In this document: positions 6,312 to 64,000 of the stretch, piece after piece
How positions within the stretch are numbered: the stretch's first letter is position 1
Layout: every line of letters starts with the position of its first letter
Assembly (NCBI GenBank): GCA_019454045.1
Contig: SKCR01034825.1
Coordinates: 84,406-148,405, forward strand
Direction of reading: 5' to 3'
DNA from: Zanthoxylum bungeanum
Taxonomy: Eukaryota > Streptophyta > Magnoliopsida > Sapindales > Rutaceae
DNA length: 64,000 bases
Notes under the pieces: model-generated
Databases searched by the model: none
What the model was told of the DNA's origin: nothing
Seen by the model: the letters and a program-made list of their open reading frames with translations, nothing else
Translations under genes and position numbers: made by a program

Positions 6312-6539
6312 TGATGAGTGGTAATTATATCACTATTTCTCACTCATTTGACCAAATAGTTTGTATAGTTTCTTGAGTTTTGTGAATATTTTGATGTGAT
6401 TTGTGTTATTTTGTAGATAAATAAAGTTTCAGGACTATCTGGAGGTGATTTGGGACAAAACAGTGAAAATTGGACGAAAAGGGCAAAACAGTCATTTCTC
6501 GCGTCGCGACGCCAAGACCTTCAGCGTCGCGACGCCTAA
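6312..6539 (+). repeat. 5' LTR of A-plus, first part
   Basis: The first 228 bp of the A-plus 5' LTR match the start of its 3' LTR at 19530. The part ends with two GCGTCGCGACGC palindromes (6501-6512 and 6524-6535) and then CCTAA, the target site of the nested A-minus element. The LTR resumes at 13899. Confidence 0.9.
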
Positions 6540-8243
6540 TGACCGGCGTAAACACACACGTATAACGCAAGCGCACGTATCGTTCAAGTAGTATAAAAAT
6601 ATCGATCCCACGAGGACTTAATTCCTACTGTTGTTATTAATTATTGAATCTATTTATTTACAGATATCTAATTGAGAGAGAAGAGAATGATTGCTTGATT
6701 GATTTTTTTGATTGTAGATTTGCTAAATAAATAAATAAATAAAAAGACAAAAGAAAATACTAAGGAAAATAAAAGACACAAAGATCTAGGGTTGTGAATC
6801 ATTCTAATATCATTTAAAAGATGAAGTGATTATTTTTTGTAATAAATCGGTTTACTAACCTGGAACACTAAATTATGCAAAAGCCTCTGTCGATGGTCAG
6901 ACGCAAATACCCAGTTTAACTCAATTGAACCATATGTCTATGTCAACCAAATTATCTGGATTCATTAAGTTTAAGTTCCAATTATGGCTACCCTCGCCTG
7001 ACAGGTATATGTCTATCCTGTAAGGAAATCTATTAAAGGGTTATCTATCCTCAAGGAAGATCGTGGGCTATTAAGGCTAAGGCTGAAACCTAAAATCCCT
7101 ATGTCTAGTTCATTTTAGATTTACCACATCAATCTTATTGGTGATCAGACAACAAGAAGCATTAAGCTTAAGACTTAATAAGTAAACCTTTTAAATTACC
7201 CAAACTATAAAATAACCCCTTATAAACCGGTGATATTAGAATTCATCACAACCCCAGATAACTAACACATAACTAGGGCTAGTAAAAACTTAAAAATAAA
7301 AGACATAAAATAAAAATGCTGAAAAGTAAAAGACATAAAGTAAAAGCTGAAAAGTAAATTGCTGAAAAGTAAATGCTGAAAGTAAATTGCTGAAAGTAAA
7401 TTGCTGAAAAGTAAATTGCTGAAAATTAAAGAAAGAAAAGTACTGTGCATAAAAGTAAATTGCGGAAAGTAAAAACTGAAAAGTAAAGAAAAGAAAGTGC
7501 GAAAGCGGAAATTAATTACTAAAAGCTATAAATAAACAAACAAGATACAATCTTCTTAGTATTCTTAAGGAATTCCTTAGAAGAAAGTATGAATTTTACA
7601 AATGAAATGGCTTGGTATTTATAGGCAAAATTTTGCCACCATCAAATCATCCACCAAATAAATTATTAATTGCTCCACTAATTGCTTATCTAATTGCTCC
7701 ACCAAATCCATTATTGCTCCACTAATTTCTTATCTTGTTTGGTGGTGATTTGATAATTTTTATTAATTATTTATTAATTAATATTTTGCTTTGAAAATGA
7801 TTAATAATGACTTTTAATAATTACACTCCACACACTTCTGGATGGTTCATCAATTTCGGTCATGAAATCATCAGAATTTGAAAATATTTTCTCTTTCAAA
7901 GTTGTAGATCTTGGAGTCTTCTTTAATCTGGAACTTGAATCAGCCCAATCCGATATCTGAGTAAGAAGTTATGCCCAAAATACAACAGATGCGCAAAACT
8001 GGAATTTCCAAAACTGCACTTCGTCAAAAACGCCCTTTCAAGTTTCCAATCTCCAAAATTAATATATCAAGTCCAATAATTGCCCTTATTTGATCCACAT
8101 TTCATCCTAAATGATTTCATTAAGTCCCAATATTATTTTATCTGCAAAATAAAATAAAAATATCAAAACGTTCATCAAACCCGAGAAACTATACGAAATA
8201 TTAGGTCAAATGAGTGGGAATAAGTGATATATACCACTCATCA
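6540..8243 (-). repeat. 3' LTR of A-minus
   Basis: On the minus strand it starts TGATGAGTGG and ends GCCGGTCA; 1704 bp. A TATA box on the minus strand lies at 7616-7623 (TATAAATA). About 7315-7440 is a minisatellite of 13-16 bp units related to GCTGAAAAGTAAATT. Unlike the A-plus, B and C LTRs it lacks the G-box cluster. The ORF at 7262-7450 is only this repeat read on the minus strand. Confidence 0.95.
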
Positions 8244-8259
8244 CACCCCCAAACCTAAC
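8244..8259 (-). other. Polypurine tract of A-minus
   Basis: Minus strand reads gttaggtttgggggtg immediately before the 3' LTR, the plus-strand DNA priming site. The same tract, with small changes, precedes the 3' LTR in A-plus, C and D. Confidence 0.85.
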
Positions 8260-8908
8260 ATTTTGCTAGTCCTCGAGCAAAACATAAAATAAAATAATGT
8301 AAATAAATTAACTAAGCCACTTTCGTAGGGATCACGGTTGCATTTAGCGTATGCAACAAGCCTTTAAACCCCTAGGTGTCCCTAGTGGACGAGTTGTAGT
8401 CTCGTGAGGGTTTACAGCAATGACACCCACAAACATTTTACAAAAGTAAAAAGGTATTAAAACTAATGCACACAAAAGCAAAAAGACAAGCGAAAAGAGA
8501 ATAAAGAAATTTAGTGACTAATCAGGTAAAACTTTTACTCCAAGTTACTAGTTGTTTTGTTTTATTCTAAATTACTGAATAAGTAAATTCTCCGATTATT
8601 TTTACCATTCTTCATATACACAGCCAACAAAATATTAATCAACTCATTTTTGCCCACAACAGTCACAAATGCAGTTGATAAGAGAGTAATATTTTTGTCC
8701 TAAAGTTCTATCAGATTTCACACCTTTTTTATAGCAATGGAATAAATTTTCTCATTTTTCTGATTTTTTCTTTGATTTTTCTCTATTTTTTATTTATATA
8801 CAATATCTTCCATCTATGTAGTGAGCTTTGGGTCGGTGGCTCCCAAACCAGTTGGCTTTAGGGCACCAGGTGTTAAGACACCCCTACGGACTTAATTACT
8901 CAGACTTC

Positions 8909-8946
<38 letters not shown>

Positions 8947-9611
8947 GAATCTTTGATCCATGTAACGAGCTTTGGGCCAGTGACTCCCAAACCAGTTGGT
9001 TTTAGGGCACTAGGTGTTAAAACACCCTTACAGACTTAATAACCCGGATCTTAGATACTTTATTTTTGTAAATCAGATTTTTTTTTTTTTTTTTTACTCC
9101 ACTGCTTTTTGAGATGCTTCCTCCAATTAAACTAGAGCACTGAATATTACAAACTTTTCAATTTAGCTCATGTCCGTATGTTACTATATATGTTGATAAT
9201 ATCTATCAATTGAGCATATGAAGATTCCTTTTAGTCAGTTTTAAGGAGAATTCACAAATTAAATAATTCAAAAGGAAATAAACAAAAATTAACTTTATTT
9301 CGAAAATGGGTTTGAGATACGTATCAGGAGTGAAAACTCCTTACTCAGCTACCTCTTACCAATTCCACCTTTTTAGTCAAAATAAAAACACAAAAATGCA
9401 AAATATTTTTGTAATTTTTGAAAATTTTTCAATTTTTTTGTATTTTTCGAAAAATTTTGGACTAAAAATAAAAACAACATACAAACTAAAAACAAGGTAC
9501 TGATCAACTAATCCCTCCCCCAAACCTAAATGAGACATTGTCCCCAATGTCTTAAACAGTAAAAGGAGAGTTAAGAAGGTCGTACCTGGTTAGCTGAAAA
9601 TCTACAGGAAA
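8260..9611 (-). other. A-minus: conserved non-coding region between LOG and the 3' LTR
   Basis: No ORF of note, yet the region is shared with A-plus, C and D. It holds a hairpin with a perfect 7-bp stem (GTTGCAT...ATGCAAC, 8337-8357), a pair of roughly 118-bp direct repeats around 8820-9060 that each contain a 'gggtgtttaacaccc'-like hairpin, an (AT)n run near 8913-8942, and GGAGTGAAAACTCC (about 9329-9342). It also has a long A/T stretch around 'aaatttttcgaaaaat'. The nearby ORF at 9306-9503 is a by-product. Confidence 0.7.
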
Positions 9612-10265
9612 TTAAAGGTTAAGATCCAGATTAATTCGACGCCTCTTACCACGATCGTCCTCGGACCAATTTATCTTTGAAAGGATAGGGTCAACTTGTG
9701 GTTCATAGGCTATGAGTTGGTCTATTAGATCTGGAGCAGTTCTGGCAGTGAAGATGAGTTCTTTCATAGGTTTTGACACGAACCCATTTCTTCGAGCATC
9801 ATCAAGAAACACACAAAGAAAATCATAAAATCCATCAACGTTAAACAGCCCAATTGGTTTCTGGTGTATGTTCAAGTTCGCCCAAGATAACACTATAAAA
9901 ATTTCCTCCAATGTGCCCAAGCCACCTGGCAAAGCGATAAAAGCATCAGCACGGTTAATCATTTCTACCAGTCGTTCAGACATACCTGGCACGATCAGTT
10001 CCTCTCCGTTTGATGAACCAATAAGATTTGCCTTTGCCAAAGGTTTTGGGATGATTCCCAAAACATGACTGCCTCCTTCCTGTACAGCCTTTGAAACGAT
10101 CCCCATAAGTCCAAGATTTCCTCCGCCATATATTAAGTGCATATTCCTTGCAGCTAAGACTCGACCCAATTCATGTGCTACTTCTATGTATTGTGGCTTA
10201 GTACCAACACTACTACCGCAAAACACGCAGATGTTTTCAACTCGTCTTCTTGAAGTGGCTTCCAT
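9612..10265 (-). CDS. LOG-like: LOG-type cytokinin riboside 5'-monophosphate phosphoribohydrolase, captured by retrotransposon A-minus
   Basis: 217 residues, intact, ATG at 10265. Family role: LOG enzymes release the active cytokinin base from its riboside monophosphate. Visible: Rossmann-type start ICVFCGSS (12-19), YGGGNLGLMG (46-55), Arg98 in MSERLVEM, and the signature PGGLGTLEE (113-121). Usual plant LOGs have Lys after that Arg; here it is Leu99. Length fits plant LOGs (about 190-245). The C-terminus carries a basic patch KRRR (207-210) and ends in LDLNL (213-217), which matches the LxLxL EAR-repressor pattern. No introns, although host LOG genes have several, so it looks like a processed copy. 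It lies between the post-pol motif and the polypurine tract, sense to the element. Enzyme activity is inferred from motifs only. Confidence 0.92.
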   Translation of the reverse strand: MEATSRRRVENICVFCGSSVGTKPQYIEVAHELGRVLAARNMHLIYGGGNLGLMGIVSKAVQEGGSHVLGIIPKPLAKANLIGSSNGEELIVPGMSERLVEMINRADAFIALPGGLGTLEEIFIVLSWANLNIHQKPIGLFNVDGFYDFLCVFLDDARRNGFVSKPMKELIFTARTAPDLIDQLIAYEPQVDPILSKINWSEDDRGKRRRINLDLNL

Positions 10266-10784
10266 TTTTTTTTATGTATTTCTTTTTCAAATCAGGATGC
10301 CTTCAAAAGTGTAATGATGGGCTGAATTTATAGTACCTGAAAAATGGTGAGTAATAATAGCACTACTATCTTCCAAAGGACGATTGTTAGCTAAACAACA
10401 AAAGAGATCGTGAAAGGTCAAAAAGTCTGGATCCTGTCTACGAAAATAAAGATAATTACAATAGAAAAGAGAATCAAAGCAATAATTAAGGCAACAGAAT
10501 TGTGTACGCAATACGCCACTCGCTTAGTATAAATTCATTAGGATGTGTCTCAAGATTTCATTCCTTATTCAGCCATCGTTAATGAATTGTTTCTCATCTT
10601 TGATTGCCAAACAAAATTCCTTCTGTCTTAAAATGCTTCGTTTGTGCCTTTCCCTACAAAAATAACACACAAAATTAAAAAGTTCACACAAAATATGAAA
10701 ACAAATTACAACAAATTGCATGGGTTGCCTCCCTGCTAGCGCTAAATTTTTCGTCTTCAGCCAGACGTGACTGAAATTCACCTG
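10266..10784 (-). other. A-minus: region between ORF1 and LOG with post-pol motif and degraded ORF3
   Basis: The minus strand contains the Athila post-pol block (about 10719-10770): 'tttagcgctagcagggaggc' then 'aacccatg', also present after pol in B and D. Further on, a T-rich acceptor-like 'cgtagacag' precedes 'gatccagac' (about 10433-10441), shared with C and D. Short ORFs here are disconnected remains of the ORF3 better seen in D. Confidence 0.55.
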
Positions 10785-12049
10785 TTAAGGAGGTTTCAAT
10801 GTCGTTTTAAATGTCCGATTAAAGACAATCCCGTGAGCGTTGCTTTTGAAGGGTCTCTTCCAACGGTAAAGTGGCAAAAAGAGTTTTGTCTCATTCAGTA
10901 CTCGTGCCACCTTTTTGCTCCTTGTTACTCCAGTGGTTCCTGCAAAGAAAGAAAGAAAATCAGGAGGTCTCGTATGATGCTTGACTTGGAATGGAAATTC
11001 CATTCTGTCAAGCTTCTGGTTGATATCTTTAATTTGTACTCCCCAAAACAGCGATGTTTCTCCTGAATGCTCTGGATCTTTATTAAGGTCAGACATTTGC
11101 TCCTCCATTTGCTCTACTTCTTGTTCCACCTTTTCTTCATAGATGAATTGTAAAATTTTTGTATTCAGCTCTTCATCTGTCATCTGTGAAATACATGCTT
11201 CAAAATTGTCAACCAGAGGATGCAAAGATTTTCTGACATTTGGTCTTCATCCTCTGATATGACTGGAATGGATGGTTCAGATAGATCTTCTTCAAACATC
11301 ATGGTAAAGCATGCTCCAAGATCTTCATTTTGAGGATTGAATGTTTGATCCTCCGTTGTTGGTGTAGTTGGTACAAATAGATCAGCTTCATCCTCGTCAG
11401 AATCTGAATAATAGAAGTCAAATTGAGACTTTACCGGTTCGGGTTCCTGAACTGATACCTCTGGTTGTTGATACTGCTCAGCCTCCTCCTCTGTTGAAGT
11501 GTCTTTGTGGATTTCTGGGTACTTGAAGGCTTCATCAGTGTCATCTGAAACTGGTTCTTGAGGTATGTAGTTCTGGTTTTCTGTTAATTGTCTCATTTGA
11601 TCTGTCATCCTCTGAATGAATTCTGATTGTCTCTGAATACTTTCAAGTTGCTTCAGGCTTGTTTCAAGCATTGTATCCAACTTTTCGTCTTGTTTCTTGG
11701 AAAAATTTTTGAGCATATCAATCAATTGTTCTTCCTCTGATGGTTCTGGTTTTTGTTGAGGATAGTAGGTGGATGGTGGATAAGATGGAAAGTATGATGG
11801 TTCTGTGAAATATGTTGGCTTTTGATAGTTCTGCCACTCTGAAAGGTATATACATTGATCGCTCGGGTGGTTACTATCACATCTCCCCATTTCGTTCTGT
11901 TGAGCAAATGTAAAATTGCTTGGTTCTTGCATCCAGTGATAATTGTTGGGCTGGACAACAGGCCTCAGAAAACTGGACTGTTGCTCCCAGATGTGGGGTG
12001 TATCTTCTTGTAAAGCTCGTAATCTCTCAGTCTCCCAGTAGTGTTCCAT
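10785..12049 (-). pseudogene. ORF1 of A-minus: shortened gag/pol-linker-derived protein, one frameshift
   Basis: Starts at the ATG at 12049 (MEHYWE). Acidic and Gln-rich, with a predicted coiled coil around 'FSKKQDEKLDTML...IQRMTDQMRQ', which lines up with the C-terminal part of Athila gag in B ('FKKQEEKYDAIF...IRQLAN'). A later part, 'QMTDEELNTKILQFI', resembles the pol linker of B ('NMTNSELDAEILECI'). The end, with LPLYRWKRPFKSNAH, I do not recognise. A one-base deletion near 11232 breaks the frame; A-plus keeps the frame there but has a stop further on. About 420 residues if unbroken. Nucleocapsid, protease, RT and integrase are absent. Confidence 0.7.
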
Positions 12050-12162
12050 TTTTTTAATCACCTGAAAATACAATAAAGAAATAAAAATTACAGATAAAGA
12101 TAAAGAAAATTAGATACAAGTAAATTGGATAGCTTCAAAATTAACAACTCAAGAAATATAAG

Positions 12163-12180
12163 TCCCCGGCAACGGCGCCA
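12163..12180 (-). other. Primer-binding site of A-minus (tRNA-Asp)
   Basis: Plus strand reads TCCCCGGCAACGGCGCCA, the 3' end of plant tRNA-Asp including CCA; the element strand is therefore complementary over all 18 bases. It lies six bases inside the 5' LTR. tRNA-Asp priming is typical of Athila elements. Confidence 0.92.
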
Positions 12181-12186
12181 AAAACT

Positions 12187-13893
12187 TGACCGGCGTAAAC
12201 ACACACGTATAACGCAAGCGCACGTATCGTTCAAGTAGTATAAAAATATCGATCCCACGAGGACTTAATTCCTACTGTTGTTATTAATTATTGAATCTAT
12301 TTATTTACAGATATCTAATTGAGAGAGAAGAGAATGATTGCTTGATTGATTTTTTTGATTGTAGATTTGCTAAATAAATAAATAAATAAAAAGACAAAAG
12401 AAAATACTAAGGAAAATAAAAGACACAAAGATCTAGGGTGTGAATCATTCTAATATCATTTAAAAGATGAAGTGATTATTTTTTGTAATAAATCGGTTTA
12501 CTAACCTGGAACACTAAATTATGCAAAAGCCTCTGTCGATGGTCAGACGCAAATACCCAGTTTAACCCAATTGAACCATATGTCTATGTCAACCAAATTA
12601 TCTGGATTCATTAAGTTTAAGTTCCAATTATGGCTACCCTCGCCTGACAGGTATATGTCTATCCTGTAAGGAAATCTATTAAAGGGTTATCTATCCTCAA
12701 GGAAGATCGTGGGCTATTAAGGCTAAGGCTGAAACCTAAAATCCCTATGTCTAGTTCATTTTAGATTTACCACATCAATCTTATTGGTGATCAGACAACA
12801 AGAAGCATTAAGCTTAAGACTTAATAAGTAAACCTTTTAAATTACCCAAACTATAAAATAACCCCTTATAAACCGGTGATATTAGAATTCATCACAACCC
12901 CAGATAACTAACACATAACTAGGGCTAGTAAAAACTTAAAAATAAAAGACATAAAATAAAAATGCTGAAAAGTAAAAGACATAAAGTAAAAGCTGAAAAG
13001 TAAATTGCTGAAAAGTAAATGCTGAAAGTAAATTGCTGAAAGTAAATTGCTGAAAAGTAAATTGCTGAAAATTAAAGAAAGAAAAGTACTGTGCATAAAA
13101 GTAAATTGCGGAAAGTAAAAACTGAAAAGTAAAGAAAAGAAAGTGCGAAAGCGGAAATTAATTACTAAAAGCTATAAATAAACAAACAAGATACAATCTT
13201 CTTAGTATTCTTAAGGAATTCCTTAGAAGAAAGTATGAATTTTACAAATGAAATGGCTTGGTATTTATAGGCAAAATTTTGCCACCATCAAATCATCCAC
13301 CAAATAAATTATTAATTGCTCCACTAATTGCTTATCTAATTGCTCTACCAAATCCATTATTGCTCCACTAATTTCTTATCTTGTTTGGTGGTGATTTGAT
13401 AATTTTTATTAATTATTTATTAATTAATATTTTGCTTTGAAAATGATTGATAATGACTTTTAATAATTACACTCCACACACTTCTGGATGGTTCATCAAT
13501 TTCGGTCATGAAATCATCAGAATTTGAAAATATTTTCTCTTTCAAAGTTGTAGATCTTGGAGTCTTCTTTAATCTGAAACTTGAATCAGCCCAATCCGAT
13601 ATCTGAGTAAGAAGTTATGCCCAAAATACAACAGATGCGCAAAACTGGAATTTCCAAAACTGCACTTCGTCAAAAACGCCCTTTCAAGTTTCCAATCTCC
13701 AAAATTAATATATCAAGTCCAATAATTGCCCTTATTTGATCCACATTTCATCCTAAATGATTTCATTAAGTCCCAATATTATTTTATCTGCAAAATAAAA
13801 TAAAACATATGAAAAACGTTCATCAAACCCGAGAAACTATACGAAATATTAGGTCAAATGAGTGGGAATAAGTGATATAAATACCACTCATCA
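12187..13893 (-). repeat. 5' LTR of A-minus
   Basis: 1707 bp, nearly identical to the LTR at 6540-8243, including the minisatellite (about 12961-13085). Starts TGACCGGCG on the plus strand and ends CACTCATCA, followed by the CCTAA target duplication. Confidence 0.95.
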
Positions 13894-13978
13894 CCTAACA
13901 TACGCCAAACAGTGCTAACGTGCGCCGGGTCCACAAGTCAGAATCTGGGAAAGTTTGACTTTGCTAACGTGCGCCGTG

Positions 13979-14468
13979 CCACGTGTCACCATCACAGCCG
14001 ATCAGCTAACATGCGCCGTGCCACGTGTCATCATCCTACAGTGCCGACAGTCACCATCGCCACGTGTCACTCCACCTGTCAGCCACATCATCGTCCACAT
14101 CACCAGTTGACTGAGTCAACATGCCACATCATCGCCACATCATTATCAACCAATCACAGCGTGCCACGTGTCGCAATTCTATGGTACCGACAGTCACAAT
14201 CGCCACGTGTGCCACGTCAGCACCACGTCAGCATCAATTATTGACTCACTTATCCGAAATCGACACGTGGCGGATAAGAATCCGAGCCGACCAATCAGAA
14301 GCCGCCACGTGTCACAATAATTGAGATCCCAACCACCTTGCCACATGTCACCTTATCACCTTATCCAGAATCTGAGACAACGAACCAGAGCGAGCCACGT
14401 CGACAATCACCGGCGTCGCGACGCTGGCTTGGCGTCGCGACGCTGGAAGCCTATCCGCGCCTATAAAT
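13979..14468 (+). promoter_or_regulatory. LTR promoter: G-box/ABRE cluster, palindrome pair and TATA box
   Basis: Seven perfect CACGTG hexamers lie between 13980 and 14311, most as CCACGTGTC, which contains the ABRE core ACGTGTC bound by plant bZIP factors in abscisic-acid and stress responses. Many weaker variants (CCACATGTC, CCACGTCAG) lie between. Two GCGTCGCGACGC palindromes (14413-14424, 14432-14443) sit just before the TATA box TATAAAT (14462-14468). The same layout occurs in the 3' LTR (TATA near 20330). Responsiveness is inference. Confidence 0.6.
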
Positions 14469-14764
14469 TCAGCTCGATTTCAGAATTCAAATCATGCCTT
14501 CCTTGAGTTTTGTAAGGACTCTAAGGATTGCATCTTGTGTGTTTTAGTTTTTGTAATTTTAATTTAGCATTTTTACTTTTAGTATTTTGAATTATGCACT
14601 TTTACTTTTTGTAATAAAATTTATTTACTTTTTTTTTTTACTTTATGTTCAGTAGTTAATTTACCGCTGGGGTAAAAGGTGAAACATTTAATATAATTAT
14701 TTAGGTAAATCTCACTTAATTATAATTTATAAATTATAATTTAACCGGATTAATTAATGTCAGA

Positions 14765-14905
14765 CTTCATTACCGCCTATATGGTCGGTCTAAATATAAA
14801 TTACTTTACCGCATATATGGCTGGTCTTTATGTGACAGATAATTACCGCTTATATGGCTGGTGTAATTGGACTAAATGGATTACCGCCTATATGGCTGGT
14901 TTTAA
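14765..14905 (+). repeat. Tandem quasi-palindromic repeats in the LTR leader
   Basis: Four units of a motif close to ACCGCCTATATGGCTGGT, spaced roughly 35-45 bp. Each unit is itself an imperfect inverted repeat (ACC-GCC...GGC-GGT). The array recurs in the A-plus 3' LTR (about 20638-20770), B (about 42920-43110), C (about 50475-50680) and D (about 54885-55055). Confidence 0.8.
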
Positions 14906-15754
14906 ATGTTTAACATTATTAATTCCTGAGAAAGCAGAACATAAAATAATTTATATATTATAATAAGTGAGATTCCTAGATAAGAAATATTAAATGTGAA
15001 TCCTCTAACCCCCAACATTTTATTTTATTCTAGGGAAGTGATGAAACACAATATTACTTGGCTTAATAATTGATTTAATTATTTAATGGGTAATTATTTA
15101 GTTTGTTTATTGAGTCTTAAGCTTAATGCTTCTTGTCGTCTGATCACCAATAAGATTGATGTGGTAAACTTAAAATGAACTAGACATATGGATTTTAGGT
15201 TTCAGCCTTAGATTCAATAGCCCACGATCTTCCTTGAGGATAAATAACCCTTTAATAGATTTCCTTACATGATAGACATATACCTGTCGGGCGGGGGTAG
15301 CCATAATTGGAACTTAATCTTAATGAATCCAGGTAATTTGGTTGACATAGACATATGGTTCAATTGGGTTATACTGGGTATTTGCGTCTGACCATCGACA
15401 AAGGCTTTTGCATATTTTCGTGTTCCAGGTTAGCAAATTAATTTATTACACATAGATAAGAGAATCAATTCATCTTTATAATATTGTGTGGAGTCACGAC
15501 CCTAGATCTTTGAGTCTTTTCTTTTATTTTCCTTAGTATTTTCTTTTGAGTCTGTTTTTATTTTAATTAGCAAATCCACATTCAACCAACAAAAACAATC
15601 ATTCTCTTCTCCATATAATTAGATACCTGTAAATAAATAGTATCAATAATTAATAACAACAGTAGGAATTAAGTCCTTGTGGGATCGATATTTTTACTAC
15701 TTGAACGATACGTGCGCTTGCGTTATACGTGTGTGTTTACGCCGGTCAAGTTTT

Positions 15755-15772
15755 TGGCGCTGTTGCCGGTGA
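15755..15772 (+). other. Primer-binding site of A-plus (tRNA-Asp, two mismatches)
   Basis: TGGCGCTGTTGCCGGTGA, six bases after the LTR; differs at two positions from perfect complementarity to tRNA-Asp. Confidence 0.88.
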
Positions 15773-15883
15773 CTTATTTTTCTTGAGTTATTAATTTTGA
15801 AGCTATCTAATTTACTTGTATCTAATTTTCTTTATTTTTATCTGTAATTTTTAATCTTTCTTTTGTTTTCAGGTGATTGAAAA

Positions 15884-19513: not shown

Positions 19514-19529
19514 GTTAGGTTTGAGGGTG
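19514..19529 (+). other. Polypurine tract of A-plus
   Basis: gttaggtttgagggtg directly before the 3' LTR; one change from the A-minus tract. Confidence 0.85.
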
Positions 19530-49426: not shown

Positions 49427-49563
49427 CGACGTTAAGCTTAGCGCTAGTTGGGAGGCAACCCATGTAATTTGTGTATATATTGTGATTTGGTGTGATTTAA
49501 TTTTGTGTGTTTAGTTTTTGCAGGTTAAGTCATTTCAGGATGGAAGAAGTTCTCGCAAATCTT
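49427..49563 (+). other. Element B: post-pol motif, acceptor-like site and start of ORF3
   Basis: 'cttagcgctagttgggaggc' followed by 'aacccatg' (about 49437-49466), then 'tttagtttttgcag' (ends 49523) and an ATG at 49540 starting MEEVLANL, which matches the start of the D ORF3 (MEKLSQVF). Cut by element C at 49564. Confidence 0.65.
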
Positions 49564-53089: not shown

Positions 53090-53742
53090 TTAAAGGTTAA
53101 GATCCAGATTAATCCGACGCCTCTTACCACGATCGTCCTCAGACCAATTTATCTTTGAAAGGATATGGTCAACTTGTGGTTCATAGGCTAAGAGTTGGTC
53201 TATTAGATCCGGAGCAGTTCTGGCAGTAAAGATGAGTTCTTTTAAAGGTTTTGACACGAACCCATTTCTCCGAGCATCATCAAGAAACACACAAAGAAAA
53301 TCATACAATCCTTCAACGTTGTACAGTCCAAGCGGTTTCTGGTGTATGTTCAGGTTCGCCCAAGATAACACTATAAAAATTTCCTCCAATGTACCCAAGC
53401 CACCTGGCAAAGCAATAAAAGCATCAGCACGATTAATCATTTCTACCAGTCGTTCAGACATTCCTGACACGATCAGTTCCTCTGTGTTTGATGGTTCAAT
53501 AAGATTTGACTCTGCCAAGGGTTTTGGGATGATTCCCAAAACGTGACTACCTCCTTCCTGTACGGCCTTTGAAACGATCCCCATAAGTCCAAGATTGCCT
53601 CTGCCATATACTAAGTGCATATTTCTTGCAGCTAAGACTCGACCCAAGTCCTGTGCTGCCTCTACGTATTGTGGCTTAACACCAACACTACTACCGCAAA
53701 ACACACAGATGTTTTCAACTCGTCTTCTGAAGTGGCTTCCAA
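53090..53742 (-). pseudogene. LOG-like: LOG copy of element C, start codon lost, otherwise open
   Basis: Homologous to the A copies along its length and open to the same TAA, with the C-terminal KRRR and LDLNL kept. The initiator ATG is TTG (53740-53742), and one base is missing a few codons later, so the frame is open only from an upstream non-ATG position. The glycine motif reads YGRGNLGLMG (Gly to Arg), and GMSER is preceded by Ser instead of Pro. PGGLGTLEE is intact. Probably decaying, but only recently. Confidence 0.85.
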
Positions 53743-53997: not shown

Positions 53998-55749
53998 TGA
54001 TCGGCGTAATCACACACGTATAACGCAAGCGCACGTATCGTTCAAGTAGTATAAAAAGTATCGATCCCACGAGGACTTAATATCTATTCTATTAATTTTA
54101 TGAGGTCAAGTGATTACTAATATCTAACAAGTTGTTTGAAAAGATAAAGATGATTCTAAATTTAAAACAAGTAAAAGAAATTTGAGAGTAGATTAATGAG
54201 AATTAAAACTATCTAGGGTTGTGAATTCTTCAATATTAATTAAAAGATGAAGTAGTTAAATCATAGTTTGGGTAAATATTGATTTATTAATCCGGAATAT
54301 TAAATTATGTAAAAGCTTCTTCCGAAGGTCATTTACAAATACCTATTTTAATTCAATTGAATCATATGTCTATGTCAACCAAATTACCTAGATTCATTAA
54401 GTTTGAATTCCAATTATGATTACCCCCGCCCAACAGGTATATTCCTAGCCTGTAAGGAAATCTATTAAAGGTTTATCTATCCTTAAAGAAAATCGTGGGT
54501 TGTTGAGTATAAGGTCTTTAAACTTAAAGTCCATATGTCTAGTTCATTTTAAGTTTAACTAATCAATTTTATTAATGGCCAGTTAGTAAAAAGGCTTTAA
54601 GATTATGACTCGACAAATAATTCTTTAATTACCCAAACTATAATCTAACCCTTTTTAAATCCAGTGATATTAGATTTCATCACAACCCTAGATATTTAAC
54701 TTAGTTACAATACATAGCTAAAGCTGATAAAAACTTAAAAGACATAAAATGAAATTGCTGAAAAGTAATTGTAAAATAATGAATTGCAATAAAAAGAAAT
54801 GAAATGCTAAGGTAAAATGAAATAACTTCTACTATATACTATTTAGATATCTACCATAAAATAATAATATATATACTTGTGATATTTTAAACCAACCGTC
54901 CGGAATGGCGGTATCCTGATTAAGTCAAATTCAAATATACCAGCCATAAGGCGGAACTAAATTAAATCAACCGACCTAGAATGGCGGTATCCTCATTAAG
55001 TCAGGTTTAACCAGTTTAAATTGAAAACCAACCGACCTAGAATGGCGGTATCTTTTTATTAATTCAGGTTTTAAATAGTTTATATATTATATTTTAAGGG
55101 AGATTAATCTAAAAAGCAAAAGTAAAAGAATTACCTTATTACCTCAACATAGAGAAGTTACCTCCTCATGGATGGATAGAATTACTACTACAAAGCGTAA
55201 ATAAAATTGAATATAAGAAGAAAATAAGAAGAACTCTCTTTTATATAAGTATTTCAGAGGATTTTGGTACATTGAAACTAAGAAATTCAAAATCTATTTA
55301 TAGGCAAAAAAATCTAATTTTTTATTATTATTTTTCTGATTTTTATTTATTTTTTTTTTTTTATTTTTTTTTTTGGATCGCTGAATTTTCGACACGTGGC
55401 ATGCGGTGCAATTACCAAAATACCCTCGGTGTCGGGACGCCCAAAATTACCAAAATACCATTTTTGCCAAATTTCACAGTTTTGCTCCAAATCACCTCCA
55501 GAATGTCCTGAACTTTTATTTTGGTGTCGGGATGCCCAAAATACCCTTTGGGTCGAGACGTCCAAAATTACCAAATACCTTTTTTGCCAAATTTCACAGT
55601 TTTGCTCCAAATCACCTCCAGAATGTCCTGAAACTTTATTTATCTACAAAATAACACAAAAACACATCAAAATATTCACAAAACTCAAGAAACTATACAA
55701 AATATTAAGTTAAATGAGTGGGAAATAGTGATACATTTATCACTCATCA
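53998..55749 (-). repeat. 3' LTR of element D
   Basis: 1752 bp, TGATCGG...CACTCATCA on the plus strand. Minus-strand TATA box at 55295-55302. The G-box block is nearly gone (one 'cgacacgtgg' near 55390) and the palindromes are decayed (e.g. 'gtgtcgggacgcc'). A 'ccaaatttcacagttttgct' segment is duplicated (about 55466 and 55589). The ORFs at 55272-55713 come from this duplication. Confidence 0.88.
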
Positions 55750-57394: not shown

Positions 57395-58043
57395 TTAAAG
57401 GTTAAGATCCAGATAACACGACGCCTCTTACCACGATCGTCCTCGGACCAATTTATCTTTGAAATGATAGGGTCAACTTGTGGTTCATAGGCTAAGAGTT
57501 GGGTCAAGTAGATCCGGAGCAGTTCTGGCAGTAAAGAGAAGTTCTTTCAAGGTTTTGACACGAACCCATTTCTCCCGGGCATCATCAAGAAACACACAAA
57601 GAAAATCATAAAATTCATCAACGTTAAACATTCCAATGGTTTTTGGTGTATGTTCAGGTTCGCCCAAGATATACTAAAAATTTCCTCCAATGTAACCAAG
57701 CCACCTGGCAAAGCAATAAAAGCATCAGAACAGTTAATCATTTCTACTAGGCGTTCAGACATACCTGGCACGATCAGTCCTCTCCGTTTGATGATTCAAT
57801 AAGATTTGCTTCTGCCAAGGTTTTTGGGATGATTCCCAAAACATGACTGTCCTCCATCCTGTACGGCCTTTTGAAACGATCCCATTAGTCCAAGATTCCT
57901 CCGCCATATACTAAGTGCATATATCTTACAGCTAAGACTCAACCCAATTCTTGTGCTGCTTCTACGTATTGTTGTTTAGTACCAACACTACTACCACAAA
58001 ACACACAGATGTTTTCAACTCGTCTTCTTGAAGTGGCTTCCAT
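57395..58043 (-). pseudogene. LOG-like: LOG copy of element D, broken
   Basis: Starts at the expected ATG (58043) and is recognisable to the end, but has a TGA replacing the Arg codon near residue 35 (CGA in the A copies), several one-base indels (in the GGG motif, near GEEL, near SWANL and elsewhere), and a one-base loss near the end that destroys LDLNL. Fragments such as GMSERLVEMIN and FIALPGG survive. Position and orientation match the other copies. Confidence 0.88.
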
Positions 58044-58214: not shown

Positions 58215-58830
58215 TCAATTATTAGAAAACAAACAAAAAGGATATAATATGTACAAAGAAAAGTAGCGGCTTGATTGACATCTATGCGTCAGGAACAAGC
58301 TTCCCATCCAATTTCTTATAAATTGGCAAACAGGGTCTTTTTGAGTCAGATTCCCAAGACTTAACTGTTGTCTTTCTTTTTGGATTGGTGTGTGTAATTT
58401 TTGAATGGCTATATGAACATATCCACTGGGATGCGTCTCAAGAGTCGAAGATATATCATCTACAGACTCCTTACTCAAGCCATCCCTAATGAATTTAATT
58501 TTATCTTCACGATTATCTGACATCATTCCTAAAGAACGACAACGAGTATTGCAATTCCAACGCGCATATTTGTAACAAAACCACATTTTGCTTAGCTCTA
58601 CGTTTCTTTGCATAGGTGCTTCTTCCAAAACCAGGTAAATAAGAACTACAAGTCTCAGAATACTCAACTGCTAGACGGACACGTGCTTCGATTACCAACA
58701 ACTATCAGTAGGAATACCTTTGATCATCAGTAGTCTCATTCGTTCCAAGCGAGCTTTGAAAATTTTTATCAGAGATTTTTGAGGGAGAGAGATGGAAATT
58801 GCTTGTGAAGACTTGCGAGAGCTTCTCCAT
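58215..58830 (-). pseudogene. Element D ORF3 remnant between pol and LOG, unknown protein
   Basis: Starts at the ATG at 58830 (MEKLSQVFTSNFHLSPSK), just after 'gtttttgcag' and homologous to the ORF3 start in B. Broken by stops after about 40 codons and again near 58513. Fragments include 'VRLAVEYSETCSSYLPGF', 'SLGMMSDNREDKIKFIRDGL' and 'ISSTLETHPSGYVHIAIQKL'. I do not recognise the family. It sits where Athila elements may carry an env-like gene, but no signal peptide or membrane segment is evident. In the A elements it is reduced to scraps. Confidence 0.5.
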
Positions 58831-58927
58831 CTTGAAATGTCTTAATCTGCAAAAACTAACACACCAAATTAAATCATACCAAATCACAATTTATACACAA
58901 ATTGCATGGGTTGCCTCCCTGCGAGCG
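58831..58927 (-). other. Element D: post-pol motif and acceptor-like site
   Basis: The minus strand reads 'cttagcgctcgcagggaggc' then 'aacccatgc' (about 58905-58932), then 'gttagtttttgcag' ending near 58851, just upstream of ORF3. Confidence 0.65.
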
Positions 58928-61900
58928 CTAAGTTTTAAGTCGTCGGCTAGAAGTGATTGCTCGAACGTTATGCTGAATCTGAAAGTGTGACACTTTCTTT
59001 TTGTCGCTCCAACGGTTCTCCCAATAGTGCTTGACACGCTGACTGTTAACCTTGAATATGTTGTTTGTGTTGGGATCCAGTAATTCAACAGCTCCATAAG
59101 GTAAAACCTGAGTGATCACAAATGGACCTGACCACCTTGATTTCAACTTTCCAGGGAAAAGTTTCAACCTCGAATTGTATAACAACACCTGTTGCCTTGG
59201 TTTCAACTGTCTGTGCACTATTTTTAGGTCATGCCATTTCTTGGTCTTTTCCTTGTACAATTTGCATTCTCATAAGCTTGTAGGCGAAATTCCTCCAATT
59301 CATTGAGTTGATGAAGTCTTTTTTCCTGCAGCTTGTAGATCAAAATTCAACTTCTTCAGTGCCCAGTACGCCTTTTGTTCAAGCTCAACTGGCAGATGGC
59401 ATGCTTTCCCAAACACCAATTGATATGGGGACATACCAATGGGTGTCTTGTAAGCTGTATGGTAGGCCCATAATGCATCATCTATTTTGTTGACCAGTCC
59501 ATCATTGTTTGATCCAACGGTTCTTTCCAAGATTCTTTTCATTTCCTGTTTGAAACTTCAACTTGCCCATTTGACTGTGGATGGTAAGTTGTGGCACCTT
59601 GTGAGTAACTCCGTATTTGGATAGGAGTGCATCAAAATATCTGTTGCAGAAATGAGAGCCACCATCACTGATGATTGCACGAGGTGTCCGAACCGAGTAA
59701 AATATTCTTCTTCAAGAATTTGATCACCACTTTGAATCATTGGATGGTAGTGCAATTGCTTCAACCCATTTTGAGACGTATCTAGCAGCAACCAAGATGT
59801 ATAGGTTTCCAAATGATGGAACAAAGGGTCTCATGAAATCAATTCCCCATACATCGAATAACCCACTTCCATAATATTTTGCAATGGTCCTTCATTTCTC
59901 CTCGAAATATTTCCATTCTCTGACATCTGTCACATTGAATAACAAACAAGTGAGCATCTTTAAAAATAGTGGGCCAGAACAAACCTGATTGAAGGACTTT
60001 AGCTGCATTTTTATTTCCACTGAAATGTCCGCCGTATGATGATGAATGACAGTGCTGCAAAACACTTTTGACTTCTTCCTGTGGAACACATCGTCTCAGT
60101 AATTAATCAGCACATCGTTTGAATAGGTACGGCTCATCCCAAACATAATGTTTAACTTCTTTGAAGAATTTCTTCCGTTGCTGAGTTGTCCATTCTAACG
60201 GCCATTTTACTGACATTATGTAGTTAACATAGTCAGCATACCAAGGGATTTCCCGCTGTTTTATGGCAAACAGCTGTTCATCTGGAAAAGTTTCTTTGAT
60301 TGTTAGATCTTTGCTAGCTGTTTCTCCATTCTCAAGTCTTGATAGATGATCTGCCACTTGGTTTTCTGTTCATTTCCTGTCTCTGATCTCCACATCGAAT
60401 TCTTGCAGAATAAGTATCCAACGGATCAATCTGGGTTGGCATCTTTCTTCGAATCAAGTATTTGATTGCTGAATGATCTGTGTAGACCACCACTTTGGGA
60501 CCCAACAGATAAGAGCGGAATTTGTCAAAAGCGAACACAACTGCAAGTAACTCCTTTTCAATGGTTGTGTAGTTAAGTTGAGCTTCATTCAAAGTTCTGC
60601 TGGAGTAGTAAATGGTATGGAATATCTTTGCTTTGCGTTGTCCCAAAACTGCACTACAGCAAAATCACTAGCATCACACATTACCTCAATTGGAAGGGTC
60701 CAATCTGTGTGCTACTATGATGGGGGCAGAGACCAGCTTCTGTTTTAAGATCTCAAAAGCTTCCTGGCATTCTTTGGTGAAGTTGAAGACACTCTTTTCC
60801 ACAAGATTGCAAAGAGGTTTGCAATTTTGGAAAAGCTTTGATAAATCTCCTGTAAAAACCTGCATGTCCAAGAAAACTCAAATTCCTTTGACTGATGTTG
60901 GTGGAGGTAGTTTTTCAATTGTCTCGATCTTTGCTTTGTCTACCTCAATTCCCTTTTGTGAGATCTGGTGTCCCAGAACTATGCCTTCTGCACCATAAAT
61001 GTGGCATTCTCCCAATTGAGTATCAGGTTTGTATCTTCACACCTTTGTAATACCTGTTCAAGATTTAACAAACAATGATCAAAAGAATCTCCAAATACAG
61101 AAAAGTCATCCATAAAAACCTCCATACTCTGCTCCAGCATGTCTGAAAAGATAGCCATCATGCAACGCTGAAATGTGGCAGGAGCATTACATAATCCAAA
61201 TGGCATCCTGCGGAAAGCAAAAGTACCATAGGGACATGTAAAGGTGGTTTCTCATGATCTTCTGGGGCGATGGCAATCTGATTGTATCCTGAATATCCAT
61301 CCAGAAAATAGTAAAACTCATGTCCTGCCAATTTTCCAGCATCTGATCAATGAATGGTAGCGGAAAATGATATTTCCTTGTGGCTTTGTTCAGCTTCTTG
61401 TAGTCCATACATACTCTCCATCCAGTCAAGATCTTGTTGGGATTAGCTCATTCTTTTCATTGGTAACCACAGTAATTCCTCCTTTCTTTGGTACACATTG
61501 CATAGGACTTACCCAACTGCTGTCTGAGATAGGGTAGATGATGCCAGCATCCAACCATTTGATGATTTCTTTCTTCACAACTTCCTTCATGATTGGATTG
61601 AGTCTCCGTTGATGTTCTACTGGGGTTTATACTCATCGTTCATCAGGATCTTGTGCATGCAGAATGATGGACTAATGCCTCGAATGTCTGCTATAGTCCA
61701 GCATATGGCTTTCTTGTGCTCTCGTAATACTCTTATAACTTTTCTTCCTGCTCCAATGTTAGAGAAGATGAAATAATAACAGGTAATTCAGAAGATTTTC
61801 CAAGAAATGCATACCTGAGATGACTCGGAAGTAACTTCAGCTCCAACTGTGGTGGTTCTTCAATCGAAGGCTGATTGGTCTTTCTTCGGTAGTTCCAAAC

Positions 61901-62580
61901 TTTCAATTGGTTGTGTCACTTTGAAATGAAAAGGCTTGTCAAGATAGTTGATACATTCCAGAATTTCAAACTCAGTTTCAGTCATGTTGGTGATGCAAGC
62001 TTCAAGTTTGTCCGTAGGAACTGTATCAGTATCCTGAATGATACTATCAATAACATTAATTCTGAAACATTCTTCCTCTTTTTCTTCACTCGGGAATTCA
62101 TGGCTTTGAAAACATTGAAGTAACTTCTTGATCCTGAACTTTCATGGTCAGTTCTCTTTTTTGTACATCAATCACAGTTCGACCTGTTGCTAAGAATGGT
62201 CTCCCAAGGATGATGGAACATCTTTGTCTTCATCCATGTCAAGGATAATGAAGTCTGCTGGGAGAATGAGTTTATCAACTTGACTAGCACATCTTCAACG
62301 ACTCCTCTGGAAATGCAAGTGTTCGATCAGCAAGTTGTAGTGAAACTGAAGTAGGCATTGCTTCTCCAATTTGCAATTTCTGTAAATAGAGAAAAAGGCA
62401 TTAAATTAACACTTGCACCTAAATCACATAAAGCCTTACCGAAGTTATGTTCTCCAATGATGCAAGGAATGGTGAAACTTCCAGGATCCTTCAACTTTGG
62501 GGGAAGTTTTCTCTGAATGATGGCGCTGCATTCTTCTGATAAGCTACTGTCTCATAATCTCCCAATCTCCGTTTTCGTGA
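58928..62580 (-). pseudogene. Element D pol (Athila type): protease, RT, RNase H, integrase, broken
   Basis: From N- to C-terminus on the minus strand: protease ALCDLGASVNL near 62400-62440; linker; RT with 'WRVCMDYKKLNKATRKYHF' (about 61390), 'MPFGLCNAPATFQRCMMAIF' and the catalytic FMDDFSVF (about 61090-61115); RNase H with 'TLNEAQLNYTTIEKELLAVV'; integrase with HCHSSSYGGHFSGNK and CDRCQR (zinc residues present) and catalytic region fragments. The C-terminus is [19 protein letters not shown], ending at 58928. Many one-base indels split the frame. Better preserved than B in its zinc motif and C-terminus. Confidence 0.9.
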
Positions 62581-64000
62581 AAGAATATCTTTCATGAATT
62601 TAGTATATAGCTGGGCATTTGTTCCAAAGCTTCTGCAAAGGGATGTTGATGTGCAGCTTTTTGAAAACCTCTAAGAATCGAGCAAACTGCTGTCCAATTT
62701 GCTTTTCTGAAGACGTGAGGAAAAAGGTTGGGTGGAGTGATGTTCTTTTTCCTTAGCTTCTTTTTCATCTGTTTCTTTCTCCTCCATCTGTTTCTCTGCT
62801 TCTTTTGGAACATCTTCGATGGGTTGCTTTGATTCCAACATCTTTGTTGATTTCAGTACCACTTTTCAAAGTGATAGCTTGACATTGCTCCTTCCCTCGG
62901 TTCCTTGGATTTGGTTCTGTATTGCTGGGAAGATTTCCTGGTGGTCTGTAACTCTGAGCATTGCTAGTTGTCTAATTGATTCTCCATGCTTTGATGGAAG
63001 CAGATTGGCTTTGAAACATAGCATCATATGCTGCTTGTTGCTTTTGAACATCTCTGCAATCCAATCTTTATTTCTGGGTCTTTTTCAACTCCTGGGTTTT
63101 GTTCTGTTGCTGGAATCCAGGTGGTGGATAGTTCTTTTGCCCTGAATTGTTGCTCATGAGAAATTGGATTTCCTCCACCCTGGATTGTAGGTGTTGGAAT
63201 ATGGATTGTTTCCCTGTCTGTGTTGAAATTGTTGACATAATTCACCGTTTCTTCAAGTTGATTTTGTTTCCGGTGCTTCTCCATATGGTGAATTTGTGGT
63301 TCCAATGTTGCTTTGCATGCCGAGAGTCTCCATAAATTTGCATATTTGATCCAGTTTTACTGACTGCTATTGGCTCCAACTTCATAAATTCCAGCAATTC
63401 GTTGAATCATGCTTCTTTCTGTTGGCCAAAGAATTGTTGTTGGCCATTTCTTCGATTAGGTCCAAGCTTGATCTTCTCTTTTTCCATTAATGCTCCTCCA
63501 GCAGCAGCATCAATTGTGGTTTCATTATTCCAGAAAGTCCATTATAGAATGTTTGGACTTGAAGCCATTTGGAATCTCATGGTGAGGACATTTCCGGAGC
63601 AAATCTTTGTACCTTTCCCAAGCTTCATAGAGAGTTTTGATCTTGTTGTACAAAGGATGTGATGTCATTCCTCAGTTTTCAGTTCTGGCTGGTGGAAAGT
63701 ACTTTGCAAGAAATTTGGTGGCTAAAGTGTTCCAAGTTCTGATGGAACCTGCTGGAAGTGAATGTAGCCCAGCTTTAGCTCTGTCTTTCAAGGAGTATGG
63801 AAAAATACGCAGTCTCATTGCTTCAACAGCTTCTCGGTTGTAATTGAAAGTGCCGCAAACTTCCAGGAAGTTGCTGATGGGGGATTTAGGATCTTCAGTT
63901 GCTTTTCCCCCAAATTGCACTGATTGCTGAATCATCTGAATGCAAGTTTTGATGTCACCTGCATTGCTGGTAAAGGAGGAAGTACAATACATGAAATGAG
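62581..64000 (-). pseudogene. Element D gag (Athila type), broken, continues beyond the window
   Basis: Minus strand: 'DIKTCIQMIQQSVQFGGKAT', 'ISNFLEVCGTFNYNREAVEA', 'FPYSLKDRAKAGLHSLPAGS', 'FLAKYFPPART' (63992-63672), then the Gln/Asn-rich part (ETVNYVNNFN near 63240) and a Lys/Glu-rich part (62592-62862). Frameshifts near 63668, 63400 and 63030. The gag N-terminus is off the window. Confidence 0.88.

Follow-up and report, generated by a model that had tools for sequence, protein, structure and literature searches.

LOG enzymes activate the plant hormone cytokinin. The Arabidopsis LOG phosphoribohydrolases AtLOG3 (2a33) and AtLOG8 (1ydh) have the same fold, PGGxGTxxE motif and catalytic Arg and Glu as the proteins described here, which differ from them in being intronless and element-borne, in three changed pocket residues, and in a basic tail with an LxLxL motif. 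The genes lie in the window, by which we mean the whole 64-kb stretch of Zanthoxylum bungeanum DNA analysed.

In layout, the closest described elements belong to the Athila lineage and have extra 3' ORFs, env-like or other. As described in PMC6317226 and PMC7264820, these likewise have a sense ORF between pol and the 3' LTR, a primer site and large non-coding parts, but the extra ORF is env-like or Athila ORF1, whereas here it encodes a LOG-fold enzyme. Closest in content is a 2022 report of YgdH (LOG-family) domains in LTR retrotransposons of the Gypsy type from Citrus sinensis, C. clementina and Populus trichocarpa (PMC9289625), which cites a 2011 paper by Steinbauerova et al. These elements too are of the Gypsy type, come from plants and bear an extra ORF of the LOG family, and on this point the original prediction, which knew of no description of LOG in a retrotransposon, is not supported. 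They are known by description, from a short domain listing in that paper, whereas here we report a fixed position, copy number, carriers without pol, intact frames, a selection test, the pocket, the tail and the contrast with host genes. The same paper describes Gypsy elements of Phalaenopsis orchids that carry AlkB, an m6A demethylase; in these, too, a host-type enzyme ORF is fixed in a plant Gypsy family and kept for several rounds; that enzyme is a different one with activity shown in vitro, whereas LOG activity here is only predicted. As far as our searches show, what is new with respect to the published literature is the scale, the LOG-keeping carriers without pol, the evidence of selection, the tail and the changes in the pocket.

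LOG-bearing elements in the window

E1 (6540–13893, minus strand) is complete and non-autonomous, an Athila-like element that has no pol and is inserted in the 5' LTR of E2. The 5-bp target duplication that flanks it, CCTAA, is identical on both sides (6535–6539 and 13894–13898), and LTR comparison placed its 3' LTR at 6540–8243 and its 5' LTR at 12187–13893 (99.4% identity, 1709 columns compared). The primer binding site TTTTTGGCGCCGTTGCCGGGGA is at 12163–12184. It is followed by an acidic gag-like ORF at 11180–12073 (297 aa), which gave no match in a Pfam scan and has a continuation in another frame (11225–10785), and by an intact LOG gene (9612–10265, P0002, 217 aa from ATG to stop).

E2 lies on the plus strand. 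The first part of its 5' LTR (6312–6539) starts with TGATGAGTGG and has one copy of the target duplication as its last five bases; after the second copy, the LTR resumes at 13899–15748 and ends in CGCCGGTCA. The primer binding site (15751–15772) has two changes relative to that of E1. An acidic gag-like ORF follows at 15884–16753 (289 aa), residues 25–131 of which gave a 30% match to the 3' part of the gag of element P (below); a CxxCx4Hx4C knuckle is present in some of its ENA relatives (P0127, P0132, P0133). The LOG gene (17544–18200, P0001, 218 aa) is intact from ATG to stop. It is preceded by a segment at 17372–17543 that is common to all four copies (in E4 from 17390) and followed by a 3' flank (18201–19529), which ends in the polypurine tract TTTGAGGGTG, and by the 3' LTR (19530–21616, by LTR comparison). 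The outer flanks, GCGAC and GCGCA, show no clean target duplication.

A further element of the same kind, P, is represented on the plus strand by an LTR (41917–44028) and an interior (44029–49563) with a primer site (44031–44052), gag (PF03732), and RT/RNase H and integrase pieces. Its interior is cut by E3, a minus-strand element with its 3' LTR at 49564–51772 (LTR comparison) and its LOG at 53090–53742. The E3 LOG has an altered start codon and one base missing near codon 6, the remainder being open; owing to these two changes, the listed ORF begins at an upstream TTG in another frame. E4, also on the minus strand, has its 3' LTR at 53998–55749 (upper boundary approximate) and a LOG at 57395–58043 that is broken by frameshifts, with stops in all three sense frames. 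Colinear with it is a gag-pol region (58294–64000) that runs past the window end and contains integrase H2C2 (59842–60102), RNase H (60335–60664), RVT_1 (60982–61251) and gag (63675–63998) domains. The junctions suggest that E3 inserted into P and that E4 inserted into E3, running off the window.

All four LOG copies foreseen in the original prediction were thus found, two intact (E1, E2) and two broken (E3, E4). As it had also proposed, every copy lies in sense relative to its own element and occupies the same place: in all four, the conserved upstream segment is followed by LOG, a flank of 1.3–1.7 kb, a GGTTTGRGGGTG-type tract and finally an LTR that begins with TGATG and ends in GGTCA or GATCA. 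An ORF3 region ahead of LOG was not borne out: no separate ORF3 was seen between pol and LOG, and at the five loci where the pol match is long it ends about 250 bp before LOG.

The elements have Ty3/gypsy features: LTRs, a primer site, gag, and the order RT-RNase H-integrase, with gag-pol order in P and E4 and a clean 5-bp duplication in E1 only. The primer site is presumably Asp-type; the 64-kb window contains no tRNA genes. No Pfam match to a chromodomain or a second RNase H was obtained in the gag-pol pieces, which are broken and were scanned apart, and none to the Athila ORF-1 domain (pfam03078) in the pieces scanned. That domain occurs in 16% of Athila elements (PMC6317226). Because an optional feature was not found, we term the elements Athila-like. 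The relatives listed bear no lineage names.

Copy number, host genes and origin

A search of the 3.96-Gb genome with a LOG 22-mer (up to two mismatches) gave 28,463 matching places and none for the reversed control, which rejects chance or an annotation artefact. A first look gave 47,331 LOG candidates genome-wide, 150 of which were scored. Loci were fetched from the best 150 by match score, which biases them toward intact genes; in 20 of 20, a gag/pol or gag-like ORF, the upstream segment, LOG, the 3' flank and an LTR occurred in that order. LTR comparison was feasible at 10 of the 20, over 512–898 columns near the LTR end, with several matches for L012 and L027. Another 12 loci all had the upstream segment, and 11 of them had the 3' flank. 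A comparison based on coordinates alone paired 35 of 84 exact LOG matches with an exact Athila-type primer site that lay upstream and in the same orientation (controls, 1 and 3; LOG matches beyond the span of the primer sites listed were left out), at distances of 2.3–2.8 kb (12), 3.8–4.25 kb (12), 6.2–7.1 kb (10) and 8.8 kb (1). LOG has therefore been multiplied as cargo at one position of one element family, as the original prediction held. Amplification of a host gene outside elements is rejected, given the upstream segment at every fetched and further locus. Scans of viral contigs gave no confirmed relative for LOG and no match for the primer site.

Host LOG genes were sought with Arabidopsis LOG3. 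Among the best 150 matches to a LOG3 piece, 28 were host-type (60–90% identical); the best 150 matches to a 46-aa piece were at most 66% identical, and the four loci read among these were element copies. The four host loci that were read, two of which look like one gene on two contigs, all have introns, in contrast to the open frames of E1 and E2, and contained no element upstream segment, element LOG match or element flank.

A first tree excluded 17 of 123 LOG proteins outside 185–260 aa. The rows of the second comprised 33 of 120 relatives, seven intact copies from this genome, L031, the three window copies, three host loci and two Arabidopsis sequences. The host LOGs grouped with AtLOG3 and AtLOG8, across a branch (100/100, length 0.61) that separates them from the other 44 rows, although exact placement is unsure for host_L035 (43% of columns filled) and host_L038 (long-branched). 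The element LOGs form one clade against the host LOGs read, not independent branches among them, and the tree rejects repeated recent capture from these host genes. Intron-bearing host LOGs exist, as expected, but those read lie far away in the tree and so are not the near donor. The flanks and pol are shared by a subfamily whose LOG has only 66% identity, from which we infer one old capture. The proposal that a processed transcript was captured fared less well: the genes are intronless, but a plain cDNA would not explain the TATAAA and splice-acceptor-like site conserved just upstream of the ATG, and the donor was not found among the host LOGs read.

Candidate members of an ancient element LOG clade are, besides the copies described here, the published Citrus and Populus elements and multi-copy relatives in Populus, Paulownia and Xanthoceras. 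Two Athila-like elements were reportedly named by Steinbauerova et al. in 2011 as similar to LOGL4.

Purifying selection on LOG

The LOG genes of the compared copies show purifying selection. The three window pairs, which were not picked by LOG quality, gave pN/pS values of 0.21 (E1/E2, Fisher p = 2.5e-7), 0.32 (E1/E3) and 0.25 (E2/E3), the p values spanning 7.9e-5 to 2.5e-7. The gag-like ORF of the E1/E2 pair showed no purifying selection (pN/pS = 0.71, p = 0.23). Between E1 and E2, LOG changed at 23.5 of 151 synonymous and 16.5 of 500 non-synonymous sites, and the 3.3% of amino-acid-changing sites compares with 8.0% in the gag-like ORF (p about 0.001) and 8.3% in the 3' flank (p = 1e-4). With the flank as yardstick, LOG was also constrained in E2/E3 (p = 0.008), whereas E1/E3 was not significant (p = 0.18). 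Summed dN/dS over 25 copies fell from 0.52 in the closest pairs to 0.17–0.19 in distant pairs, and was 0.256 outside the Pfam-scored part of LOG; this set favours intact genes, since an ATG frame was needed and 5 of 28 loci tried had no usable start.

These data bear on the idea that LOG was captured once and passively copied as neutral cargo within a successful element. The many broken copies (half of those in the window), a dN/dS of about 0.5 in the closest pairs and the E1/E3 result fit this idea, and non-autonomous carriers hitchhike anyway. It is nevertheless improbable, and already disfavoured, given the low pN/pS of LOG beside that of the gag-like ORF and the retention of frame, catalytic residues and tail through many copying rounds. 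Conservation of the LOG region for an RNA function (packaging, splicing) would agree with the strong conservation of the segment directly upstream, but in E1/E2 the synonymous sites have diverged much more strongly than the non-synonymous sites, and also more than the flank (15.6% against 8.3%, p = 0.004; the cause of this excess is unexplained), making this explanation very improbable.

Active site, tail and possible role of the element LOG

The LOG proteins of E1 and E2 both match PF03641 (3.5e-36, Pfam), and a structure model (pLDDT 82.9) had Arabidopsis 2a33 as its best fold match (probability 1.00, 51% identity). The following residue assignments are from PMC4979012. The PGGXGTXXE motif (P114, G115, G116, G118, T119, E121, E122) and the catalytic Arg99 and Glu122 are kept in 25 of 25 copies checked from this genome. 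Of 120 relatives, 112 retain R99 and 116 retain E122; R99 is replaced by Q in eight, among them the P0011/P0013 group. Of Met96, His97, Lys100, Glu125 and Trp129, the proposed base/prenyl pocket of cytokinin LOG, M96 and W129 are kept, whereas H97 is S in 24 of 25 own copies, K100 is L in all 25, and E125 is I or T in all 25. Changing crucial LOG residues to alanine almost wholly abolished activity, and K100 is named among the adenine-binding residues, in that source. The prediction of a hormone-activating enzyme thus stands for the catalytic residues of the copies checked and not for three of the five pocket residues, which makes cytokinin activation no more than a candidate function. We class the protein with the LOG fold and not as a cytokinin-activating LOG, although it may still work like one.

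Replacement of H97, K100 and E125 while R99, T119, E121 and E122 stay would suit an enzyme that kept its phosphoribohydrolase chemistry and was repurposed for another nucleoside monophosphate aiding the element, such as a modified or defence-related one. We consider this repurposing unlikely, though a serious candidate: Populus LOGL10-named proteins have similar pocket changes, which may be a clade feature only.

A C-terminal LDLNL, which conforms to the LxLxL (EAR-type) consensus, is found in 17 of 19 own full-length copies. The basic pair and LxLxL tail occur in 88 of 109 relatives (11 of the 120 are short of the C-terminal landmark) and are absent from the host LOG ends read. If the LOG fold were a mere scaffold, this tail could be the working part of a non-enzymatic effector that recruits a corepressor; LxLxL is a defined EAR consensus (PMC9956375), and the R99 to Q change in some relatives points the same way. 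A scaffold would not need the catalytic residues, which are invariant in the own copies checked, and such a role is distinctly improbable. The tail is not proof of corepressor binding, because a C-terminal LDLDL is cited as not mediating TOPLESS interaction in the same paper.

In each of the four window copies, TATAAA precedes the position of the start codon by 46–67 bp; in E2, which also has the acceptor-like CTCACCCTTTTTCAG|GT, its distance from the ATG is 48 bp. In the upstream alignment (L011 and L013 not located), TATAAA is present in 22 of 22 rows and TTTCAG|GT in 21, and a stricter branch-point pattern in only 14. A simple splice score places the LOG acceptor 5th among 254 AG sites in E1 and 4th among 238 in E2; the proposed donor also scores as an acceptor and is missing in P.

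On balance, with odds only slightly better than even, we favour a very large Athila-like family whose intronless LOG-type gene, between the pol or gag-like ORF and the 3' LTR, is a selected resident gene likely serving the element. By analogy with env-like ORFs, LOG could be translated from its own short mRNA, made from the upstream TATA box or by splicing to TTTCAG|GT. The protein would cleave a nucleoside 5'-monophosphate, which may be a cytokinin nucleotide or, in view of the altered pocket, a related nucleotide; its basic LxLxL tail may direct it into the nucleus or toward a corepressor of the TOPLESS type. A shift in the state of the element-active cell might allow more new copies to reach cells that divide and form the germline. 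An advantage of this kind, within the same cell, would account for the retention of LOG even in carriers without pol, but it is a guess, since a protein acting in trans implies weak selection per copy. More speculatively, and rather doubtfully, the gene may belong to an ancient element-borne LOG clade in Athila-type elements of many flowering plants, with a reprogrammed active site and a nuclear EAR tail, acting as a host-reprogramming effector (nucleotide hydrolase plus corepressor recruitment) in the cell that hosts an active copy.

To our knowledge, there are few families of plant retrotransposons in which selection preserves a host-type enzyme. In this genome, the element copies or remnants that carry a relative of a hormone-activating enzyme number in the tens of thousands, and the gene has persisted even where pol is absent. 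LOG gene counts by domain in such genomes count transposons, as the first-look candidates illustrate. A transposon that manipulates the hormone or transcription state of its host to reach the germline is now a directly testable idea.

A nest of related elements carrying LOG

The window contains nested, related LTR elements, four of which (E1–E4) carry a LOG gene or its remains. The LTRs of E2 (6312-21616, plus strand) measure about 2.09 kb, and the one at its 5′ end is interrupted by E1 (6540-13893, minus strand), which has LTRs of about 1.7 kb that are 99.4% identical and a CCTAA target duplication on both sides. The fifth, related element, P (plus strand; LTR at 41917-44028, gag-pol at 44029-49563), is interrupted by E3 (minus strand), which is itself interrupted by E4 (minus strand), extending past the window end; this nesting order was deduced from the junctions. 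LTRs of the family start with TGATG and end with GGTCA or GATCA. A lone LTR end of the same family lies at 39782-39986 (minus strand), and the E1 LTRs contain a 14/29-bp tandem array (AAATGCTGAAAAGT) at 7281-7487 and 12927-13133.

The primer site TTTTTGGCRCYGTTGCCGGNGA directly follows three LTRs (at 12163, 15751 and 44031; shuffled sequences give an expectation of 0), and we take it to be the tRNA-Asp-complementary site typical of Athila. Primers mentioned for non-chromoviruses include tRNA-Asp (PMC6317226). E4 and P contain pieces of gag, RT, RNase H and integrase. E1 and E2 gave no pol match and hold a gag-like acidic ORF; some relatives of this ORF contain a CxxCx4Hx4C knuckle. The 3′ flanks of E1–E3 diverge by 6.5-8.3%.

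Other repeats are also present in the window. A repeat pair of a different element (26903-28791 and 34956-36843) is 95% identical, and remnants of copia gag and integrase and a weak RT lie at 30994-34904. Long AT-rich tandem arrays of the TAATTAATAAATAA type form two blocks at 24177-25252. A weak remnant at 1867-2286 (minus strand; E=0.00034, under the curated cut-off) matches Transposase_28 (PF04195), a domain known from Retand elements.

In each of E1–E4, the LOG gene lies in the sense direction after pol (or the gag-like ORF) and before the 3′ LTR, in agreement with the original observation of four copies at the same place in their own elements. LOG is intact in E1 (217 aa) and E2 (218 aa), lacks its start codon and one base near codon 6 in E3, and is broken in E4. 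Its GC content is 0.42, compared with 0.32-0.33 for the E2 flanks.

Abundance and arrangement in the genome

The genome from which the window derives (3.956 Gb, 51,709 contigs) was searched. A first-look search for PF03641 gave 47,331 candidates, and all of the best 150, which were scored, lay above the cut-off. A LOG 22-mer identical in E1–E4 matched 28,463 places with at most 2 mismatches, and the primer site had 18,343 exact matches (control 0 in both cases). Some contigs may be second haplotypes, given that several host matches form equal-score pairs, and haploid counts may therefore be lower.

Roughly every seventh of the 150 scored candidates was then fetched with its surroundings. A search for LTR-bounded copies with LOG in the same place had been proposed, and all 20 loci conformed, showing the order upstream segment, LOG, 3′ flank and LTR, preceded by gag/pol or the gag-like ORF. 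Three of the 20 were of the E1/E2 type, and five had a continuous pol match of more than 3 kb. Among 12 additional LOG loci, the upstream segment was present in 12 and the 3′ flank in 11; at one locus, L033, a truncated LOG passes directly into the LTR.

By coordinates alone, an exact primer site on the same strand lay no more than 12 kb upstream of 35 of the 84 exact LOG matches listed; conversely, an exact LOG match followed downstream of 35 of the 100 primer sites listed (controls: 1 on the opposite strand, 3 downstream). The distances (12 at 2.3-2.8 kb, 12 at 3.8-4.25 kb, 10 at 6.2-7.1 kb and one at 8.8 kb) include three classes that fit types with the gag-like ORF, with part of pol and with full gag-pol. 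K2P distances between LTR pairs, obtained near the LTR end for 10 of the 20 loci, were 0.006-0.033 at nine loci and reached 0.096 at the tenth, which suggests that most pairs are young (0.2-1.3 Myr, at a substitution rate of 1.3e-8 per site per year).

Selection on LOG and features of the encoded protein

The window copies, which were not selected on LOG quality, were compared pairwise. For E1/E2 (LOG at 9612-10265 and 17544-18200), Sd was 23.5/151 and Nd 16.5/500, giving a pN/pS of 0.21 (Fisher 2.5e-7); the values for E1/E3 and E2/E3 were 0.32 (7.9e-5) and 0.25 (3.0e-6), respectively. The gag-like ORF of the E1/E2 pair gave 0.71 (p=0.23), and amino-acid-changing sites in this pair diverged by 3.3% in LOG versus 8.0% in the gag-like ORF (p about 0.001). 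Synonymous divergence of LOG between E1 and E2 was about twice that of the non-coding 3′ flank (15.6% versus 8.3%, p=0.004). Measured against the flank, amino-acid-changing LOG sites were slower in E1/E2 (p=1e-4) and E2/E3 (p=0.008). No significant slowing was found for E1/E3 (p=0.18), as would be expected of neutral cargo, a LOG captured once and copied passively inside a successful element. Because of this flank comparison, neutral cargo gained slightly but is still improbable, and our preferred reading, an Athila-like family in which LOG serves as a selected resident gene, was slightly weakened and is now rated only a little more likely than not.

Across 25 LOG copies of this genome, summed dN/dS was 0.52 in the 4 pairs with dS <0.05, 0.34 in the 3 pairs at 0.05-0.1, and 0.17-0.23 in pairs with dS >0.1. 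Genes kept through transposition, with neutral decay after each insertion, should show such a drop with distance. The fetched copies had been chosen by Pfam score, and dN/dS was hence also calculated for the part not covered by the Pfam score, giving 0.256 in 19 copies, and for residues 1-53, giving 0.247 in all 25.

The LOG model (pLDDT 82.9) had Arabidopsis LOG3 (2a33) as its best structural match, with 51% identity and a TM score of 0.73 (query) or 0.91 (target). R99 and E122 are proposed catalytic residues of LOG, and M96, H97, K100, E125 and W129 are assigned to the prenyl site (PMC4979012). All 25 copies keep R99, E122, M96 and W129; H97 is replaced by S in 24, K100 by L in 25, and E125 by I (23 copies) or T (2 copies). 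Of 120 relatives, 112 retain R99 and 8 have Q there (including P0011 and P0013); 116 retain E122.

LDLNL stands at the C-terminus of 17 of the 19 full-length copies, with a basic triplet within the last 14 residues in 16; the modelled tail (residues 205-218) has a pLDDT <50. LxLxL, an EAR consensus (PMC9956375), occurs together with a basic pair in 88 of the 109 relatives that reach the C-terminus. This EAR-like tail (18165-18200 in E2) is common to Populus- and Paulownia-named relatives and absent from the host LOG ends read.

Candidate expression signals, host LOG genes and standing of the family

LOG could be expressed via its own promoter or a splice site, a possibility suggested by candidate signals, TATAAA and a TTTCAG/GT-type site, conserved upstream. 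TATAAA lies 46-67 bp upstream of the start codon position in E1–E4, and an upstream alignment of 22 rows contains it in 22, TTTCAGGT in 21 and a stricter branch-point pattern in 14. The N-terminal extensions of two relatives, P0013 and P0011 (65% LOG), encode DTSAIITHPFQVYKF or LLLTHFQVYKF, matching the segment upstream of LOG. Of 11 leaders compared, 10 have a similar TTTCAG/GT ahead of gag; P does not. TTTCAG sites resembling the pre-LOG site also lie between primer site and gag start at 12045-12186 (minus strand), 15749-15890 and 44029-44160. They could act as alternative acceptors of a leader intron. Splicing of LOG would resemble the case of barley Bagy2, whose env-like ORF is reported to be spliced (PMC7264820).

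A 67-aa Arabidopsis LOG3 query identified 28 host-type places (at least 58 bits, 60-90% identity) among 150 scored matches, the remaining 122 being element-type (38-45% identical). Of the host-type matches, 22 stop at query residue 49 or 50, as expected at an exon border. Introns split the exons in the four host loci read, two of which (L035 and L036) look like a single gene on two contigs. No LxLxL end, element upstream segment, element LOG match or element flank was found in these four, with the single exception of 76 bases of LTR sequence at one end of the L038 stretch.

In a 49-row tree, in which host_L035 covers only 43% of columns and host_L038 sits on a long branch, the host rows cluster with AtLOG3/AtLOG8 and are separated from the other 44 rows by a 100/100 branch of length 0.61. 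An intron-bearing host LOG had been expected as the closest outgroup; the introns are there, but these genes lie across that branch, and no near donor was found among the host loci read. The window copies and other copies of this genome group with relatives P0004-P0006 and P0019 (100/99), and the LOG of locus L031 pairs with P0008 (99/93). Although this LOG is divergent (72% DNA and 66% protein identity to that of E2), it is still accompanied by the upstream segment, the 3′ flank and pol, which suggests that the LOG-element association is old. Near-identical LOG relatives are numerous in Paulownia and in Xanthoceras (clusters with 35 and 39 members), as well as in a 57-row clade to which the Populus-named rows belong, and look like further mobile LOG expansions.

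LOG-family (YgdH) domains have been described in Gypsy elements of Citrus and Populus (PMC9289625, citing Steinbauerova et al. 2011). The abstract of Steinbauerova et al. (2011) reportedly names two Athila-like elements similar to LOGL4. In a literature search by title and opening of the abstract, which covered few subscription papers, no paper listed dealt with transposon-borne LOGs in terms of copy number, selection, pocket or tail, and a term search of a 2026 gene-capture review (PMC13317346) gave no match to 'LONELY GUY', 'cytokinin' or 'Athila'. LOG-bearing retrotransposons are of a kind already known but barely described. The family in Z. bungeanum is real and very large, and its LOG is kept by selection; a benefit of the LOG protein to the element is predicted.
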